A stretch of DNA of 37,181 nucleotides from Kribbia dieselivorans NBRC 106261 (GCF_001552435.1 NZ_BCRE01000087.1:1-37181), one strand, 5' to 3'; shown: positions 1 through 10,019, counted from the first letter of the stretch. A program made the numbers and translations. The notes: a model not told the origin generated them from the sequence alone.

Positions 1-135
1 CTCCATGCAATCTCAGGCACCCGACCACAACAAGAGCCACGCACAAACCTGTGGACAACCCCTGGGACAACCCCCGCGACACCCCCCTGACCAGCCCCCT
101 CACGCGTGGCCTGCATCTCGACTTCCCCACCCCAC

Positions 136-165
136 TTCGACCACCCCCCCGAGCCCATGTATCTT
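136..165 (+). promoter_or_regulatory. Predicted cydA promoter
   Basis: A TTCGAC -35-like element (136-141) is separated by 18 bp from a TATCTT -10-like element (160-165). This would start transcription near 172, about 40 nt before cydA, inside the dyad at 167-183. Elements were assigned by eye. The rest of 1-135 is C-rich and I see no gene in it. Confidence 0.5.
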
Positions 166-166
166 C

Positions 167-183
167 TACTACGTCATGTAGTA
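167..183. promoter_or_regulatory. Dyad operator candidate at the cydA start point
   Basis: TACTACGTCATGTAGTA is an inverted repeat with 6-bp perfect arms and a 5-bp centre, immediately downstream of the predicted -10. BlaI/MecI/CopY-family repressors are known to bind TACA/TGTA-type dyads. A BlaI-like gene lies at the end of this same gene string, so it is the obvious candidate ligand. The link is inference. Confidence 0.5.
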
Positions 184-211
184 CTTCGCCTGCCCCTCGG
201 GAGCCCCGCTC

Positions 212-1660
212 ATGGACGTCCTGGAATTGGCACGGTGGCAGTTCGCCATCACAACCGTGTACCACTTCTTCTTCGTGCCGATCACCATCGGCATGTCAAT
301 GCTGGTTGCCTGGTTCCACACGTCCTGGTTGCGCACGCGCAACCCCGACGACCTGCGCCTGGCCAAGTTCTTCGGAAAGCTCTTCACGATCAACTTCGCC
401 CTCGGTCTCGTGACCGGCATCGTGCAGGAGTTCCAGTTCGGCATGAACTGGTCCGACTACTCCCGCTTCGTCGGTGACATCTTCGGCGCGCCACTCGCCT
501 TCGAAGCGCTCCTCGCCTTCTTCCTCGAGTCGACCTTCCTCGGCCTGTGGATCTTCGGTTGGGGCCGCATCCCCGAGAAGCTCCACGTCATGTGCATCTG
601 GCTGGTGCACATCGGCACGGTGCTCAGCGCCTACTTCATCCTCGCGGCCAACTCGTTCATGCAGCACCCGGTCGGCTACCGCTACAACGCCGAGACCGGC
701 CGCGCCGAAATGACCGACTTCGTCGCCGTGCTCCTGAACAAGGTGCAACTCGTCACCTTCCCGCACGTCGTCACCGCCGCCTACATGACCGGCGCCACCT
801 TCGTCATGTGCGTCGCGCTCTACAAGATGCGCAAGGCCCACCGCAACGCCGACTCCGGCGGCGGCGAGCTCGCGGCCGACGTTCCCATGTGGAAGCGCGC
901 CTCCCGACTGGGCGCCATCGTCACCCTCGTCGCCTCCCTCGGCGTCATCGTCTCCGGTGACTTCCAGGGCAAGATCATGACCGAGGTCCAGCCCATGAAG
1001 ATGGCCGCGGCGGAGGCGCTGTACCACACCTCCGACAGCTGCGCTCCGTTCTCCGTGCTCACCGTTGCCGACCTCGGTGGCGCCAACCCCAAGCACGTCA
1101 TCGAGGTGCCCTGCCTGCTCAGCTACCTCGGCACCGGCGACTTCAACGGCCGCGTCGAGGGCATCACCGAACTCGAGGCCCAGTACCAGCAGGAGTACGC
1201 CAACAACCCGCTCACCGCGGCGTCGACGTACATCCCGAACATCCCCATGACGTACTGGAACTTCCGCCTGATGATGGGCGCCGGTTTCTTCACGATGATC
1301 GTCGCGGCCTGGGTTCTGTGGGCCACCCGCAAGAACAACGTGCCGATGGGCACGTGGGTGCACCCGCTGCTGTGGATCACCCCGATCGCCATCATGCTCG
1401 GATCGTCGTTCGGCTGGATCTTCACCGAGATGGGCCGCCAGCCGTGGCTTGTCTTCGGTGAGATGACGACCGCGACCGGTGTCTCCCCGAGCGTGTCCGC
1501 GGCCAGCGTGTGGATCTCGATGATCGTCTACACCCTGCTCTACGGCGTGCTCGCCGTCATCGAGGTCAAATTGTTCCTCGACTACATCAAAAAGGGCCCC
1601 GAGCCCTTCGAGGAGCCTCGCCAGATCGGCGAGGACGAAAAACTCGAGTTCGCGTACTGA
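212..1660 (+). CDS. cydA: Cytochrome bd quinol oxidase subunit I
   Basis: This is the haem-bearing subunit of the cytochrome bd terminal oxidase, which oxidises membrane quinol and reduces O2 to water with high oxygen affinity and resistance to many respiratory poisons. The 482-residue protein has the expected multi-span membrane layout. Visible family marks are the N-terminal haem ligand His18, the start of the quinol-binding loop (QPMKMAAAEAL, from residue 260) and the GRQPW motif (408-412). Its length and short Q-loop fit the short CydA form usual in actinobacteria. The ATG is preceded by GGGAG at 199-203. It is the first gene of the cydABDC string, and cydB follows after 15 nt. Identification is very secure. 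Confidence 0.97.
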   Translation: MDVLELARWQFAITTVYHFFFVPITIGMSMLVAWFHTSWLRTRNPDDLRLAKFFGKLFTINFALGLVTGIVQEFQFGMNWSDYSRFVGDIFGAPLAFEALLAFFLESTFLGLWIFGWGRIPEKLHVMCIWLVHIGTVLSAYFILAANSFMQHPVGYRYNAETGRAEMTDFVAVLLNKVQLVTFPHVVTAAYMTGATFVMCVALYKMRKAHRNADSGGGELAADVPMWKRASRLGAIVTLVASLGVIVSGDFQGKIMTEVQPMKMAAAEALYHTSDSCAPFSVLTVADLGGANPKHVIEVPCLLSYLGTGDFNGRVEGITELEAQYQQEYANNPLTAASTYIPNIPMTYWNFRLMMGAGFFTMIVAAWVLWATRKNNVPMGTWVHPLLWITPIAIMLGSSFGWIFTEMGRQPWLVFGEMTTATGVSPSVSAASVWISMIVYTLLYGVLAVIEVKLFLDYIKKGPEPFEEPRQIGEDEKLEFAY

Positions 1661-1675
1661 TCGGGGACGGAGATC

Positions 1676-2719
1676 ATGGAACTTTCACACTTCTGGTTCA
1701 TCCTCATTGCCGTCCTGTGGACCGGCTACCTGGTGCTCGAGGGCTTCGACTTCGGCGTCGGCATGCTCCTGCCGGTGCTCGACAAGACCGGCGACCCCAA
1801 CGACCCCGACGACACGCCGGAGAAGCGCCGGCGCGTCATGCTCAACACGATCGGCCCGTTCTGGGACGGCAACGAGGTCTGGCTGCTCACCGCGGGCGGA
1901 TCGATGTTCGCGGCCTTCCCGCACTGGTACGCCACGATGTTCTCGGGCATGTACCTCGCCCTGCTGGTGCTCCTTGTCGTCCTGATCCTGCGCAACATGG
2001 GCTTCGAGTACCGCCACAAGCGCGACTCCGACGCCTGGCGCCGCGGCTGGGACTACTGCATCATCGTCGGCTCGTTCGTCGCTCCGCTGCTGGTCGGCGT
2101 GGCCCTGACGAACATCGTCAACGGTCTGCCCATCGACGCGCACATGGAGTTCACCGGCAACCTGCTCACGCTGCTCAACCCGATCAGCCTGCTCGGCGGC
2201 ATCGTCGTGGTCGGCCTCTCGCTGACCCACGGCGCGCACTTCATTGCCCTGAAGACGGCCGGCAAGATCCGCGAGGACGCCCGCGCGGTCGCCACCAAGG
2301 CGGGTGTGGTCACGGCCGTCCTCGCCGTCGTCCTGCTGCTCTGGCTGGGTCTGTCGCGTGACGGATCGCCGTTCTCCTGGGCCACGACGATCCTCGCCGC
2401 GGTCGCGCTGCTCGCCGCGCTGTGGTTCAACCATCAGGGCAAGGAGGGATACGCCTTCACCGCCACCGCGCTGACGATCCTCCTGGCGGTGACGACCTAC
2501 TTCGTGCTGCTCTTCCCGAACGTCATGCCCACGACGCTCGCCGACGGCACGGACCTGACGATCGTCAACGCCGCCAGTTCGACGCTGACATTGAAGATCA
2601 TGACCGGCGCGGCGCTGATCTTCACGCCGATCATGCTGCTGTACACGGCGTGGAACTATTGGGTGTTCCGCCGCCGCATCCGCGTCGAGCAGATCCCCGA
2701 CCCGGTCAAGGTCAGCTGA
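1676..2719 (+). CDS. cydB: Cytochrome bd quinol oxidase subunit II
   Basis: This is the second core membrane subunit of cytochrome bd oxidase, pairing with CydA. The 347-residue protein opens with the family-typical segment containing WTGYLVLEGFDFGVG. It also carries the conserved GPFWDGNEVWLL stretch near residues 60-70, followed by a series of hydrophobic spans. The length is normal for CydB. The ATG has a GGAG-type ribosome binding site just upstream and lies 15 nt after cydA, so the two are almost certainly co-transcribed. A hairpin (2735-2771) separates it from cydD. Confidence 0.97.
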   Translation: MELSHFWFILIAVLWTGYLVLEGFDFGVGMLLPVLDKTGDPNDPDDTPEKRRRVMLNTIGPFWDGNEVWLLTAGGSMFAAFPHWYATMFSGMYLALLVLLVVLILRNMGFEYRHKRDSDAWRRGWDYCIIVGSFVAPLLVGVALTNIVNGLPIDAHMEFTGNLLTLLNPISLLGGIVVVGLSLTHGAHFIALKTAGKIREDARAVATKAGVVTAVLAVVLLLWLGLSRDGSPFSWATTILAAVALLAALWFNHQGKEGYAFTATALTILLAVTTYFVLLFPNVMPTTLADGTDLTIVNAASSTLTLKIMTGAALIFTPIMLLYTAWNYWVFRRRIRVEQIPDPVKVS

Positions 2720-2734
2720 CCTGATGCATCGATC

Positions 2735-2771
2735 CGAGTGGGTCGGGCGGCACCCTCGGCCGACCCGCTCG
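2735..2771 (+). terminator. Hairpin between cydB and cydD
   Basis: CGAGTGGGTCGG (2735-2746) pairs with CCGACCCGCTCG (2760-2771), 11 of 12 positions matching, around a 13-nt GC-rich loop. There is no U-run, so it may be a partial terminator, a processing site or a 3' stabiliser for cydAB mRNA. Its presence argues that cydD starts downstream at 2811 rather than at the ATG at 2724. Confidence 0.45.
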
Positions 2772-2810
2772 ATCATCACCACCCCCACCATCCCCGACCA
2801 GAAGGCCCGC

Positions 2811-4406
2811 GTGAATCCCTTCGACCCTCGCCTCCTCCGCACCGTCCCCGGCGCCCGCCGCCCGGTGCTCCTGCTGGGGGTGCTCGGAGTCCTGCAGGGG
2901 GTCGCCACGGTCGCCACCGCGTTCGCCCTGACCGCCGTCGTCGTGGCCGCCGTGCGCCAGACGGATCTTCGTGAACCCTCGGCCTGGCTGCTGGGCCTCT
3001 TCCTCGTCCGCGCGGTCATCGCCTGGTCCTCCGAACGCATCCAGGCGTGGGCCGGCACCCGCGTGGCCACCGCCCTGCGCGAACAACTGTTGGCCACGTG
3101 GCTCCAGCGCGACGCCGACTCCCGCCCCGACCGTGCGCGGGCCCTGACCCTGGCGACGCAGGGCGCCGCGTCGGTCGAGCCGTACATCGCCAAGTACCTG
3201 CCGGCGCTGCTGGCGGCCGCCGTCGTGCCGCCGCTGGCGATCATCACCCTGTTCGTCGTCGACTGGCCCAGCGCGATCGTGGTCATCCTCACGGTGCCGC
3301 TCCTGCCCCTCTTCGCCGCGCTGATCGGCGTCACCACCCGCGACGACACCCGGACCCGGTGGCAGACCCTGTCCGACCTCGCCGGCCACTTCCTCGACGT
3401 CGTGCGCGGACTGCCCACACTCGTCTCCTACGGTCGCGGCGAACGCCAGGTGGCCACGATTCGGGAGGTCAGCGACAAGCACCGCCTGGCGACGATGCGG
3501 ACGCTGCGACTGGCGTTCCTCTCCTCGGCCGCCCTCGAACTGCTCGCGTCGCTGTCCGTGGCGATCGTCGCGGTGCTCACCGGTCTGCGGCTGACCCACG
3601 GCACGATGGAGCTCGGTGCCGGTCTCGTCGCGATTCTCCTCGCCCCCGAGGCGTACTGGCCGATTCGGCGGGTCGGAGCGGAGTTCCACTCGGCCGCCGA
3701 CGGCGCCGAGGCGCTCGAGGACATCCTCACCGAACTCGAGGCGGCCACGGACGCCGCCACGGACGCGGCCGGTGACAGGGATGACAGGGACAGCCCCGCT
3801 GACCTGATCGCTCGCGATGTCACCTACGCCTACCCCGGCACCGCGACCCCGGTGCTGCGCAACGTCTCCCTGACGGCCACGCGCGGCCTGACGGCCCTGA
3901 CCGGCCCCTCGGGCATCGGCAAGTCGACACTGCTGGAGATCCTCGCCGGCATCCGGCGCCCCACCTCCGGCGCAACGGAGCGCGGTGGCGAGACCCACCT
4001 CGTCAGCCAGCGTCCCTTCCTCGGCGCCGGCAGCGTGCGCGCGAACCTGACGCTGGGCACCACCGCCACCGACGCCGCCGTCGCGGCCGCGGTCGCGCAG
4101 GTCGGACTGACCGACGTCATCGACGCACTGGGCGGGCTCGACGCTCCGCTCGGTGACGACGGCTTCGGTGTGTCGGCCGGGCAGCGTGCCCGCCTCGTGC
4201 TCGCCCGGGCCCTGCTCAGCGACGCTCCGATCGTGCTGCTCGACGAACCCACGGCCCACCTCGACCCCGAGTCGGCGGCGCTGGTCCACCGGATCATCAC
4301 CGATCTCGCCCGCGAGCGCACCGTCGTCGCGGTCACCCACCGCACCGACCTCATGGACCTCGCCGACCAGCGCGTCGACCTGGGCGCCGAGGTGGTGGCC
4401 CGATGA
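2811..4406 (+). CDS. cydD: ABC transporter CydD (cytochrome bd assembly)
   Basis: CydD is one half of the CydDC heterodimeric ABC exporter of thiols and haem-related compounds that is needed for assembly of cytochrome bd. From the GTG at 2811 it is 531 residues: an N-terminal six-span ABC type 1 membrane domain (about 1-310), then a nucleotide-binding domain. That domain has a Walker A GPSGIGKS at 365-372, a signature VSAGQRARLVLARAL and a Walker B IVLLDEP. I chose GTG 2811 because AGAAGG precedes it, homologues usually open at the VNPFDPRLLR-like segment, and the cydB-cydD hairpin would otherwise be coding. An in-frame ATG at 2724 would add 29 unconvincing residues. The gene overlaps cydC by 4 nt. 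Confidence 0.92.
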   Translation: MNPFDPRLLRTVPGARRPVLLLGVLGVLQGVATVATAFALTAVVVAAVRQTDLREPSAWLLGLFLVRAVIAWSSERIQAWAGTRVATALREQLLATWLQRDADSRPDRARALTLATQGAASVEPYIAKYLPALLAAAVVPPLAIITLFVVDWPSAIVVILTVPLLPLFAALIGVTTRDDTRTRWQTLSDLAGHFLDVVRGLPTLVSYGRGERQVATIREVSDKHRLATMRTLRLAFLSSAALELLASLSVAIVAVLTGLRLTHGTMELGAGLVAILLAPEAYWPIRRVGAEFHSAADGAEALEDILTELEAATDAATDAAGDRDDRDSPADLIARDVTYAYPGTATPVLRNVSLTATRGLTALTGPSGIGKSTLLEILAGIRRPTSGATERGGETHLVSQRPFLGAGSVRANLTLGTTATDAAVAAAVAQVGLTDVIDALGGLDAPLGDDGFGVSAGQRARLVLARALLSDAPIVLLDEPTAHLDPESAALVHRIITDLARERTVVAVTHRTDLMDLADQRVDLGAEVVAR

Positions 4407-6070
4407 CCACGGACCGCACCACCACCACGACCACGCGCACCAACCCCCTGACCCTGACCCGCTCGACGATCCTCGGTGGTCTCCTCGGCGGCATCGCCAC
4501 CGCCGCCGGCATCGCCCTGACGGCCACCTCCGGGTGGCTCATCGTCCGCGCCAGCGAACGCCCGCAGATCCTCCTGCTGCTCACCGCGATCGTCGGCGTG
4601 CGCACGTTCGGCCTGGCCCGCCCCGTCTTCCGTTACTGGGAGCGACTCGTCAGCCACGACGGCTCCCTGCGCGACCTCGCGGAGCGCCGTGCGGCGACCT
4701 ACGCCGCGCTCGTCCCCCTGACCCCGGCCCGACTCGGACGGAGACGACGCTCCGATGTGCTCAACGGCATCGTGGACGACCTGACCGATGTCGTCGAGGC
4801 CTCGGTGCGCGTCACCGTCCCGGTGTTCTCGGCCGCCGTGGCCGGCATCATCGCGGCGATCGTGACCGTCCTCTTCAACCCCGGCGTCGGCGCCGTGCTC
4901 GCGGCGATGCTCGTCGCCTGTGCCCTGCTGTTCGTGCTCTCCTGGCGCCTCGAGTGCGCCGCCCAGGACGACCTGCTCGCCGCCCGCGCCGAGGTGACCC
5001 GCGTCAGCACCCTCGTCGCCGACCACGCCGGTGACCTGCAGGCCATCGGTGGCCAGGCCGACGCGCTCTCGTGGGTGTGGCAGGCCGATGCGCGGGTCCG
5101 CACGGCCACGTCGCGTCAGTCCCGCGGGCGCGCCCTGACCGCCGCGCTGCTGCTCGTCATCACCGGCGTCGCGACCATCGCCGCCGCGTACCTGGCGCAG
5201 CGTTCCGGCTCGCACATCGCCATCGTCGCGATGCTCACGCTCATCCCGGTCGCCACCGGAGAAGCGCTCGGCGTGCTCACCGAGGCCACCCGCGCCCTGG
5301 CCCGGGCGCAGGGCAGCGCCCGCCGACTCGACGCGATGCTCGACCAGACCCCGGCCGTGGCCGATCCGGCCGCAACCCCGGGCCTGATTGCGGCCCACCC
5401 CGACGGCCACGACCTCGCCCTGGCCGACGTCACCGCCTCCTGGGACGGCACCGGCGACCACCTGCCGCCGACCTCCCTCGACCTGTCCGCCGGCGACCGG
5501 ATCGCGGTGGTGGGGCCGAACGGGTCGGGCAAGTCGACGCTGTTGGCCGTGCTCGTGCGGCATCTCGACCCGACCGCGGGCCGGTACGCGCTCGGCGGGG
5601 CCGACACCGCGCGGATCCCGCTGGCCCAGGCGCGCGCGGCCTTCGCCCTCGTCGACGACGAACCGCACATCTTCGCGACGTCGGTGCGCAACAACCTCAG
5701 ACTCGCCGATGCCACCCAGGCCGGCGACACGGCGATCCGTGACGCGTTGACCGCGGCTGGCCTGGCCATGTGGCTCGACGGTCTCGACGAGGGCCTCGAC
5801 ACCCGCCTCGGCGCCGGCGGACGCGGTGTCTCCGGCGGCGAGCGGGCACGCTTGGCGGTGGCTCGGGCGGTGCTCTCGGACCGACCGGTGGTCGCCCTCG
5901 ACGAGCCCACGGCCCACCTCGACACCACGACCGCGCGTGCGGTCCTCGCCGATGTGCTCACCGCGACCGCTGGGCGAACCGTGGTGATGGTCACGCATCA
6001 TCACGCCGATCGGGAAGGTTTTGACCGCACACTGGAGTTGAGCAGTACAGAAAGTGGGCGAGCAGAGTGA
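4403..6070 (+). CDS. cydC: ABC transporter CydC (cytochrome bd assembly)
   Basis: CydC is the partner half-transporter of CydD in the thiol/haem ABC exporter required for functional cytochrome bd. The 555-residue protein has an N-terminal membrane domain and a C-terminal ATPase with Walker A GPNGSGKS (371-378), signature VSGGERARLAVARAV and Walker B VVALDEPTAHLD. The ATG overlaps the cydD stop (ATGA), indicating translational coupling. Its own stop overlaps the GTG of the BlaI-like gene, tying the regulator into the same transcript. Confidence 0.94.
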   Translation: MTTDRTTTTTTRTNPLTLTRSTILGGLLGGIATAAGIALTATSGWLIVRASERPQILLLLTAIVGVRTFGLARPVFRYWERLVSHDGSLRDLAERRAATYAALVPLTPARLGRRRRSDVLNGIVDDLTDVVEASVRVTVPVFSAAVAGIIAAIVTVLFNPGVGAVLAAMLVACALLFVLSWRLECAAQDDLLAARAEVTRVSTLVADHAGDLQAIGGQADALSWVWQADARVRTATSRQSRGRALTAALLLVITGVATIAAAYLAQRSGSHIAIVAMLTLIPVATGEALGVLTEATRALARAQGSARRLDAMLDQTPAVADPAATPGLIAAHPDGHDLALADVTASWDGTGDHLPPTSLDLSAGDRIAVVGPNGSGKSTLLAVLVRHLDPTAGRYALGGADTARIPLAQARAAFALVDDEPHIFATSVRNNLRLADATQAGDTAIRDALTAAGLAMWLDGLDEGLDTRLGAGGRGVSGGERARLAVARAVLSDRPVVALDEPTAHLDTTTARAVLADVLTATAGRTVVMVTHHHADREGFDRTLELSSTESGRAE

Positions 6071-6465
6071 ACAAACGAGGACCATCCCTGGGCGAGCTGG
6101 AACGCGCGATCATGGACGTGCTGTGGGAGACCGACGACCCGGCCGGCCTGAACGTGCGTGACGTCATGGCTGCGCTCCCGGAGCGTTCGTTGGCGTACAC
6201 GACGGTCATGACGGTGCTGACCCGCTTGGTGAGCAAGGGGTTCCTCACCCGCAAGCGCGACGGCCGCGCGTGGCGCTACGTCGCCGTCGACACCCGTGAA
6301 GAACTCACCGGCCGGGCCATGCGCGACCCGCTGAGCAACCTGCCCCACGCCGAGCAGCACACGGCGATCCTGCACTTCATCGAGGGCGCCTCGGACGACG
6401 AGCTCGAGGTGCTCAAGGCCGCACTGGCCAAGGTCGAGGCGCGCGGCGGTCGGGGAGTCGCGTAG
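6067..6465 (+). CDS. BlaI/MecI/CopY-family winged-helix repressor
   Basis: A 132-residue transcriptional repressor of the BlaI/MecI/CopY (Penicillinase_R) family. The N-terminal winged helix (about residues 7-75) contains the typical LGELERAIMDVLW and LAYTTVMTVLTRLVSKGFL segments. The C-terminal half is the dimerisation region that M56 proteases cleave in known systems. The GTG start overlaps the cydC stop (GTGA), and an M56 metallopeptidase follows 11 nt downstream, the usual BlaI-BlaR pairing. No beta-lactamase is nearby. The position suggests control of the cyd genes through the dyad at 167-183, which is inference. Confidence 0.9.
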   Translation: MNKRGPSLGELERAIMDVLWETDDPAGLNVRDVMAALPERSLAYTTVMTVLTRLVSKGFLTRKRDGRAWRYVAVDTREELTGRAMRDPLSNLPHAEQHTAILHFIEGASDDELEVLKAALAKVEARGGRGVA

Positions 6466-6476
6466 CGTTTCCCTCG

Positions 6477-7340
6477 ATGTTCGCTGCCCTTCTCGCCCTG
6501 CTCGCCGTCGGATTCATCGCCGTCGCGCCCCGTGTTCTGGCCGGGGCCACGTCGTTGCGTCGCCGACCCCGCGCGGGGCTGTGGCTGTGGCAGACGAGCG
6601 CGTTGGCGGGGGTGTTGTGCGTCGTGGCCACCCCGCTGGTGGCGGTGCACGCGCTGACGAGCCTGCCCGCGTCGCCGGCCAACGATGCCTCCCGGGGGTT
6701 GTCGCTGGCGGCGCTGGCCCTGAGCGCCGTCGTCCTGGCCCGGCTGCTCATCAACGCCCACCTCGTCGGATCGCGGTTGCGCGCGGCCCGGGCGCGGCAC
6801 CGCACCTTGGTCGACCTCGTCGGCACGCATCACTCCAAGCACACGCGCGTGCTGCCGCACACCATGCCGACGGCCTACTGCGTGCCGGGCCTGCGCCACC
6901 GGGTCGTGCTCAGCGAATCCACCTTGGCGCGGCTCAGTGAGGACGAGCTCCAGGCCGTCATCGCCCACGAGCTGGCCCACCTGGGTGAGCGGCACGATCT
7001 GCTGCTCGAGTACTTCGCGGTGGTGCACCGCACGGCGCCGTCGTGGTTGCGCAGCGAGAATGCCGTGCGCGAGGTCGCGTTGCTCATCGAGCGTCTCGCC
7101 GACGAGGCGGCGCGCCACAAGGTCGGGGAGATCCCGTTGGCGCGGGCGATGGTCAGCCTGGCCGGAGCGTCGACACCCGAGGGCGCGTTGGGCATCCGCA
7201 CCCCCGGCGCCACGGCGATCCGCATGGAGATGCTCACCGCCGAGGAGCCGAGCCGGGCCGGGACGCTCGCGGCGTACCTGCTGGGCATCGGCGCGCTCGC
7301 CCTGCCGATCATCATCGTGGTCGCGGCGTTCGTGGCCTGA
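6477..7340 (+). CDS. M56-family (BlaR1-like) membrane metallopeptidase
   Basis: An integral-membrane zinc protease of family M56, the class that cleaves BlaI/MecI repressors after signal perception. The 287-residue protein has about three N-terminal membrane spans (within 1-100), a cytoplasmic domain with the zinc motif HELAH at 164-168, and a last span at the C-terminus (about 262-286). Unlike staphylococcal BlaR1 it ends there: the extracellular penicillin-binding sensor domain is absent, so it should not sense beta-lactams in the classical way. No clear ribosome binding site precedes the ATG, which fits translation from the blaI-like gene 11 nt upstream. The signal is unknown. Confidence 0.88.
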   Translation: MFAALLALLAVGFIAVAPRVLAGATSLRRRPRAGLWLWQTSALAGVLCVVATPLVAVHALTSLPASPANDASRGLSLAALALSAVVLARLLINAHLVGSRLRAARARHRTLVDLVGTHHSKHTRVLPHTMPTAYCVPGLRHRVVLSESTLARLSEDELQAVIAHELAHLGERHDLLLEYFAVVHRTAPSWLRSENAVREVALLIERLADEAARHKVGEIPLARAMVSLAGASTPEGALGIRTPGATAIRMEMLTAEEPSRAGTLAAYLLGIGALALPIIIVVAAFVA

Positions 7341-9902: not shown

Positions 9903-9956
9903 CCCCACGGTTCGAGGTAATAGGGACCGTTACAGCGGTCGCTAATACCTCGAACC
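9903..9956. repeat. 54-bp hairpin repeat, copy 1
   Basis: This is the first of two identical 54-bp units. Within it, 9909-9929 pairs with 9936-9956 (21-bp arms, 2 mismatches) around the 6-nt loop TTACAG. It lies between the convergent phosphatase (+) and membrane protein (-) genes, where it could act as a bidirectional terminator. There is no U-run. The next copy follows after 9 nt. Confidence 0.85.
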
Positions 9957-9965
9957 AACTGGGGA

Positions 9966-10019
9966 CCCCACGGTTCGAGGTAATAGGGACCGTTACAGCG
10001 GTCGCTAATACCTCGAACC
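9966..10019. repeat. 54-bp hairpin repeat, copy 2
   Basis: This is an exact duplicate of the preceding unit with a 63-bp period; the stem-loop occupies 9972-10019. Two identical long hairpins side by side could pair within or between copies. They are followed by a run of GGGGCGG-type repeats up to the stop of the gene at 10063. Confidence 0.85.

Follow-up and report, generated by a model that had tools for sequence, protein, structure and literature searches.

The closest described relatives of the system reported here pair a DNA-binding repressor with a membrane zinc protease. In Staphylococcus aureus, the BlaI-BlaR1 and MecI-MecR1 pairs likewise consist of a Penicillinase_R repressor and a membrane gluzincin with HExxH and ExxxD motifs, and residues H201 and E242 of BlaR1 lie 41 residues apart (PMC9834060). 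The corresponding pair in Mycobacterium tuberculosis is BlaI-BlaR (Rv1846c-Rv1845c). Three papers (PMC5473688, PMC5874750, PMC12565901), which cite Sala et al. (2009), report M. tuberculosis BlaI on the promoters of cyd (cytochrome bd), atp (ATP synthase) and blaC, and describe a BlaR that has no sensor. Binding of BlaI to the Rv1303-atp promoter was seen by EMSA (PMC12565901). The locus described here carries a repressor and a protease of this kind together with the genes for cytochrome bd. With blaI and the protease gene inside the cyd operon and the repressor's predicted DNA site conserved ahead of the oxidase genes, respiration in this actinobacterium and most of its family is very probably under the control of a switch best known for its part in antibiotic resistance.

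The window (the whole stretch of DNA analysed, 37,181 nt) contains at 212-7340 six tightly packed genes in one direction, namely cydABDC, blaI and the gene for an M56-type protease. Cytochrome bd is a high-affinity terminal oxidase that helps bacteria, tuberculosis bacilli included, to survive respiratory inhibitors. The genes and the predicted operator in front of them are as follows:

167-183, no strand assigned: predicted BlaI operator dyad, TACTACGTCATGTAGTA; exact 6-5-6 dyad, kept in relatives
212-1660, + strand: cydA, cytochrome bd oxidase subunit I; Pfam PF01654 (Cyt_bd_oxida_I), E 4e-157
1676-2719, + strand: cydB, cytochrome bd oxidase subunit II; Pfam PF02322 (Cyt_bd_oxida_II), E 2e-107, and TIGR00203 above cut-off
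2724-4406, + strand: cydD, thiol-reductant ABC exporter subunit; TIGR02857, 482 bits, above cut-off
4403-6070, + strand: cydC, thiol-reductant ABC exporter subunit; TIGR02868, 426 bits, above cut-off
6067-6465, + strand: blaI, BlaI/MecI-family repressor of 132 aa with a GTG start; PF03965 (Penicillinase_R), E 1.6e-26
6477-7340, + strand: M56-type membrane zinc protease of 287 aa without penicillin-binding sensor; HExxH/ExxxD residues and predicted fold

Genes overlap by 4 nt at cydD/cydC and again at cydC/blaI, and 11 nt separate the blaI stop from the protease gene. The sequence-only reading had treated these genes as one coupled unit with a dyad at the promoter; their common direction, the overlaps, the short gap and the presence of the dyad before cydA all bear out tight coupling. 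The sequence-only reading had also placed the dyad over the predicted cydA start point; a sigma-70 promoter scan of window positions 1-400 returned no usable promoter, which leaves that placement putative. Further along the window, at 9910-10019, two convergent genes are separated by a region with two copies of an imperfect inverted-repeat unit of ~48 nt (GGTTCGAGGTAATAGGGACCGTTACAGCGGTCGCTAATACCTCGAACC), spaced ~64 nt from each other. The same genome has another cydA-like gene at C47:29401-30513, a distant one with 39% identity over the N-terminal 200 residues.

The window BlaI is a Penicillinase_R protein, with residues 8-121, the winged-helix domain, matching PF03965 at 93.3 bits (cut-off 22.6), and it is the only member of this family in its genome. 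Its closest PDB match, and thus its nearest solved relative, is 2g9w (E 1.2e-22), which we take to be the structure of M. tuberculosis BlaI. The CopY/TcrY copper repressors share the same winged-helix family. However, the NCBIfam CopY model matches the window BlaI only weakly, at 44 bits, far under its cut-off of 122, and no copper transport gene adjoins blaI, which has a protease gene alongside instead.

The dyad TACTACN5GTAGTA occupies -45 to -29 relative to the cydA ATG, that is, 28-29 nt before the ATG; the earlier reading had named the TACA/TGTA type for BlaI/MecI/CopY repressors, from which this TACTAC/GTAGTA operator differs. The window has no other exact 6-5-6 site, and the whole 3.29-Mb genome has just one more. 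This second site (C130, L002 1501-1517) lies 54 nt before the gene for a two-helix membrane protein of 183 aa (1572-2123). The same genome holds two beta-lactamase-like matches, both weak (PF13354), and neither has a dyad near it; a beta-lactamase was rejected as the local target on this ground. This distribution of exact sites supports the earlier suggestion that the BlaI pair is tied to the bd oxidase rather than to a beta-lactamase. The ATP-synthase operon of the window genome (L262) was also ruled out as a second target, as it has no dyad, its best site showing 4 mismatches.

Conservation of the arrangement was followed in 119 genomes of the window's family. Both cydA and a BlaI match are present in 83 of them, and in 71 of these 83 blaI lies close to cydA on the same strand. 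The start of blaI is 5.7-6.5 kb downstream of cydA in 67 of the 71, the place expected after cydABDC, and blaI lies directly upstream of cydA in three (G046, G079, G118); within the linked set, cydA of G081 is a fragment only. For the operator, the 400 nt upstream of cydA were searched in ~100 family genomes, a dyad being called at two mismatches or fewer, and one record (L010, Janibacter melonis), taken as the same as G036:C2, was left out of the dyad and BlaI counts. A dyad is found 38-99 nt before cydA in all 71 genomes with a BlaI ortholog, whereas 27 of the 28 genomes without one have nothing better than 4 mismatches upstream of cydA (71/71 versus 1/28, Fisher P = 2e-23; by genus, 36 versus 11). 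In the lone BlaI-negative genome with a dyad, G045, the contig stops before the blaI position. Conservation of the dyad wherever cyd and blaI stay together had been set beforehand as a test of the proposal, which passed it on these counts.

Operator and repressor are gained and lost together. The cydA tree implies ~6 changes of BlaI state, which the dyad tracks, and the co-variation is therefore not one ancestral accident. Within genus g26, for example, BlaI and the dyad are both missing from G095 and both present in G025 and G068. G067, which consists of one contig, carries blaI at a distance from cydA and retains the dyad upstream of cydA. Two dyads occur at 45 of 69 loci, with a spacing of exactly 19 nt in 24 of those 45, and the dyad core CxAC/GTxG is nearly invariant, with flanks that are not conserved. 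A chance origin of the dyad is ruled out by its co-variation with BlaI, by dinucleotide shuffles, in which 2 mismatches were reached in 0.08% of trials, and by a reversed-pattern control, which gave chance-like results upstream of cydA.

Such a site could in principle serve another factor, with blaI and the protease gene as mere passengers behind the cyd genes. That reading is hard to reconcile with the family-wide co-variation of dyad and BlaI, which extends to G067, with its unlinked blaI, and to G095, which lacks blaI. Moreover, the dyad accompanies BlaI outside the cyd context. Ten Pseudonocardiales blaI-M56 loci without cyd (e.g., L018 11234-11644) carry it between the M56 gene and a gene for a 115-aa membrane protein, 10-11 nt before the start of the latter in 10/10 loci, and it also precedes blaI in G033 and, in the Mycobacterium-type genus described below, the genes reported as BlaI targets. 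Another regulator at this site is thus extremely improbable, and BlaI remains the preferred candidate for binding the dyad.

Other families of the class show the same association in a different gene order. In 11 genomes (G195, G208, G206, G192, G137, G176, G159, G144, G181, G120, G210), blaI is divergent from cydA, and the shared intergenic region holds dyads or close variants (TTCTACN5GTAGAA). No BlaI-negative genome of the class-wide sample has a dyad (two mismatches or fewer) upstream of cydA. Some BlaI-positive families, such as f21, show no dyad at cydA, and the BlaI proteins there are more distant. A more distant type of cydA (~30% identity) also adjoins blaI in G189, G173, G156 and G204 (L311-L314), with the variant dyad TTCTACN5GTAGAA at three of these four loci. 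One genus is treated here as Mycobacterium-type because its CydA aligns over nearly the full length with 7nkz, the structure of M. tuberculosis CydA. It serves as a positive control: the dyad precedes cydA in 22/22 genomes and, in 30/30, lies close to the atp operon at a distance of several hundred nt upstream of atpB. The dyad is very probably the operator of the window's BlaI lineage, because this control agrees with the reported BlaI targets and 2g9w is the nearest structure. On these sequence comparisons, BlaI very probably controls cyd through the dyad.

The second protein of the pair requires closer classification. It scores 28.2 bits against the M56 profile (PF05569), just under the cut-off of 31, and 38.1 bits against the M48 profile (cut-off 20.3, E 1.8e-9); its predicted structure and its partner gene favour assignment to M56/BlaR1. 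The AlphaFold model (pLDDT 90) combines a membrane-helix scaffold with a zinc-protease fold, and its best structural match is S. aureus BlaR1 residues 3-291 (Z 11.6, 214 aligned, rmsd 4.8); Foldseek alone gave weak E-values only. Residues H164, E165 and H168 (HExxH) and E205 and D209 (ExxxD) are invariant in 33 aligned relatives, with the same 41-residue spacing as in BlaR1. The modelled protein thus holds a cytosolic gluzincin site of the BlaR1/MecR1 type (HExxH...ExxxD) in a four-helix membrane domain. The chain stops at residue 287, just past the last long helix, and has no counterpart of the penicillin-binding domain. The protease may act in the manner of BlaR1, but it is no beta-lactam sensor of the BlaR1 kind. 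The earlier statement that the protease had lost its sensor is right as to the absence of the domain, but "never had" is preferable to "lost" because all 33 aligned actinobacterial relatives are of sensorless length.

An M56 protease with HExxH is encoded at 58 of 69 linked loci, and 0/18 BlaI-less genomes contain an M56 match. Protease and repressor are thus acquired and lost jointly, apart from a few genomes that have BlaI only. Nine loci that are uncut by a contig end have no protease beside blaI. For six of them an M56 gene lies elsewhere in the genome, and in the other three (G025, G042, G048), which have BlaI and the dyad, none was found anywhere in the genome. Because of these three genomes, M56 may not always be needed to release BlaI, or another protease may act. 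These nine cases, together with the absence of a sensor domain, leave room for a reading in which BlaI represses cyd through the dyad and responds to some other input (a direct ligand, redox state, phosphorylation or dilution), the protease having a separate or auxiliary role at the membrane. Inputs through a kinase (PknB) and WhiB4 have been proposed for M. tuberculosis (PMC9834060; PMC5473688). However, the joint gain and loss of M56 and BlaI and the BlaR1-like zinc site, including the spacing to its third ligand, make that reading rather unlikely, and the protease probably provides the release step.

Dyads elsewhere in the genomes indicate what else BlaI may control. Exact dyads number 123 in the 83 BlaI-positive genomes and 1 in the 36 BlaI-negative genomes, compared with 30 and 28, respectively, for the reversed pattern. 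Genes beside the non-cydA dyads were called from ORF length and third-position GC rather than with annotation software. Most of these dyads lie 20-130 nt before members of a recurrent gene set. Pyruvate phosphate dikinase (PPDK) is preceded by a dyad, 20-85 nt upstream, at seven loci (L205, L206, L208, L210, L217-L219), which links BlaI to PEP/pyrophosphate energy metabolism. The gene for a two-helix protein of ~190 aa, often divergent from htpX, is preceded by a dyad at nine loci, including the window genome's own C130 site (183 aa) and eight others. Further dyads lie upstream of genes for a DoxX-like membrane protein (seven loci; the name is our own reading, with no profile match), a PNPOx-like protein (five loci), and NarK-like transporters, universal stress protein (USP), sulfide-quinone reductase (SQR) and a glutamate-synthase-like oxidoreductase (two loci each). 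Pfam and NCBIfam gave no name for the two-helix, the DoxX-like or the 115-aa Pseudonocardiales proteins. Judged by gene identities, the dyad-bearing genes look like a respiratory and low-energy regulon.

The system might nevertheless still be mainly a beta-lactam or envelope-stress response, in which cytochrome bd would be induced to cope with cell-wall antibiotics. In M. tuberculosis, treatment with a beta-lactam plus clavulanate induces blaI-blaR along with cydAB, and blaC is reportedly under BlaI control too (PMC5473688). In contrast, most of the putative targets across the window's family have roles in respiration, redox or low-energy metabolism rather than in the cell wall. With a protease devoid of a penicillin-binding sensor and no dyad near either beta-lactamase-like match of the window genome, a primary role in antibiotic defence is improbable here, and a switch serving respiration is preferred.

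In the proposed mechanism, the cyd operon would carry its own repressor gene. BlaI, acting as a winged-helix dimer, would bind TACTAC-N5-GTAGTA before cydA and block transcription of cydABDC-blaI-M56. Because blaI and the protease gene share this operon, BlaI would presumably also limit the production of both proteins. The M56 protease would be anchored by its membrane helices, with the zinc site on the cytosolic side, and a disturbance of the membrane or of the main route of respiration would activate it. The activated protease would then cleave or otherwise disable BlaI, allowing cytochrome bd and the CydDC exporter to be made, and newly made BlaI and protease would reset the switch. The same repressor could act in trans, through the same dyad, on a few other genes, here that of the ~183-aa membrane protein and in relatives also those of PPDK, NarK-like, USP, SQR, PNPOx-like and DoxX-like proteins, in what would be a respiratory or low-energy response and not beta-lactam resistance. 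Repression, dimer binding and proteolytic inactivation are proposed here by analogy with the repressor family. We assign a probability of about 0.78 to the whole proposal, comprising BlaI-dyad repression of the cyd operon, proteolytic release by M56 and the trans regulon. More tentatively, and with the odds somewhat against it, the sensorless M56-BlaI pair may be of old actinobacterial origin and serve to sense when respiration or membrane energy fails, relieving the repression of cytochrome bd and of a low-energy regulon through proteolysis; mycobacterial beta-lactamase control would then be a side branch, and in the window's family the pair would have become hard-wired in the cyd operon as a module that resets itself.

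The presence of a BlaI operator at cydA through much of the class, with joint gain and loss, makes a general regulatory link of what was a side note on a single pathogen. The form within the operon, which occurs in harmless bacteria, also offers a clean system for asking what a sensorless BlaR1-type protease senses, a question posed in PMC9834060 and PMC5473688.

Relative to S. aureus BlaR1 and MecR1, the window protease lacks the extracellular penicillin-binding domain, and the predicted target of the pair is a terminal oxidase. The M. tuberculosis-type regulon is matched at cydA in the window (167-183), as in the Mycobacterium-type genus; it is not simply transferred, because the window genome's own atp operon lacks the dyad that this genus has. 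In the window's family, moreover, no beta-lactamase target is seen, the targets include PPDK, NarK-like, USP, SQR and PNPOx-like genes, and blaI-M56 lies inside the cyd operon itself. The sequence-only reading had called a proteolytic switch on a terminal oxidase unusual. The arrangement is not unprecedented, because PMC5473688, citing Sala et al. (2009), reports M. tuberculosis BlaI on the cyd and atp promoters and a sensorless BlaR; the BlaI-cyd link and the sensorless BlaR are thus already reported, and the wiring within the operon is not. What is new is that across a family the repressor and protease genes belong to the cyd operon, that operator and repressor co-vary strictly, that the association is conserved class-wide under differing gene orders, and that the dyads mark what looks like a respiratory regulon.
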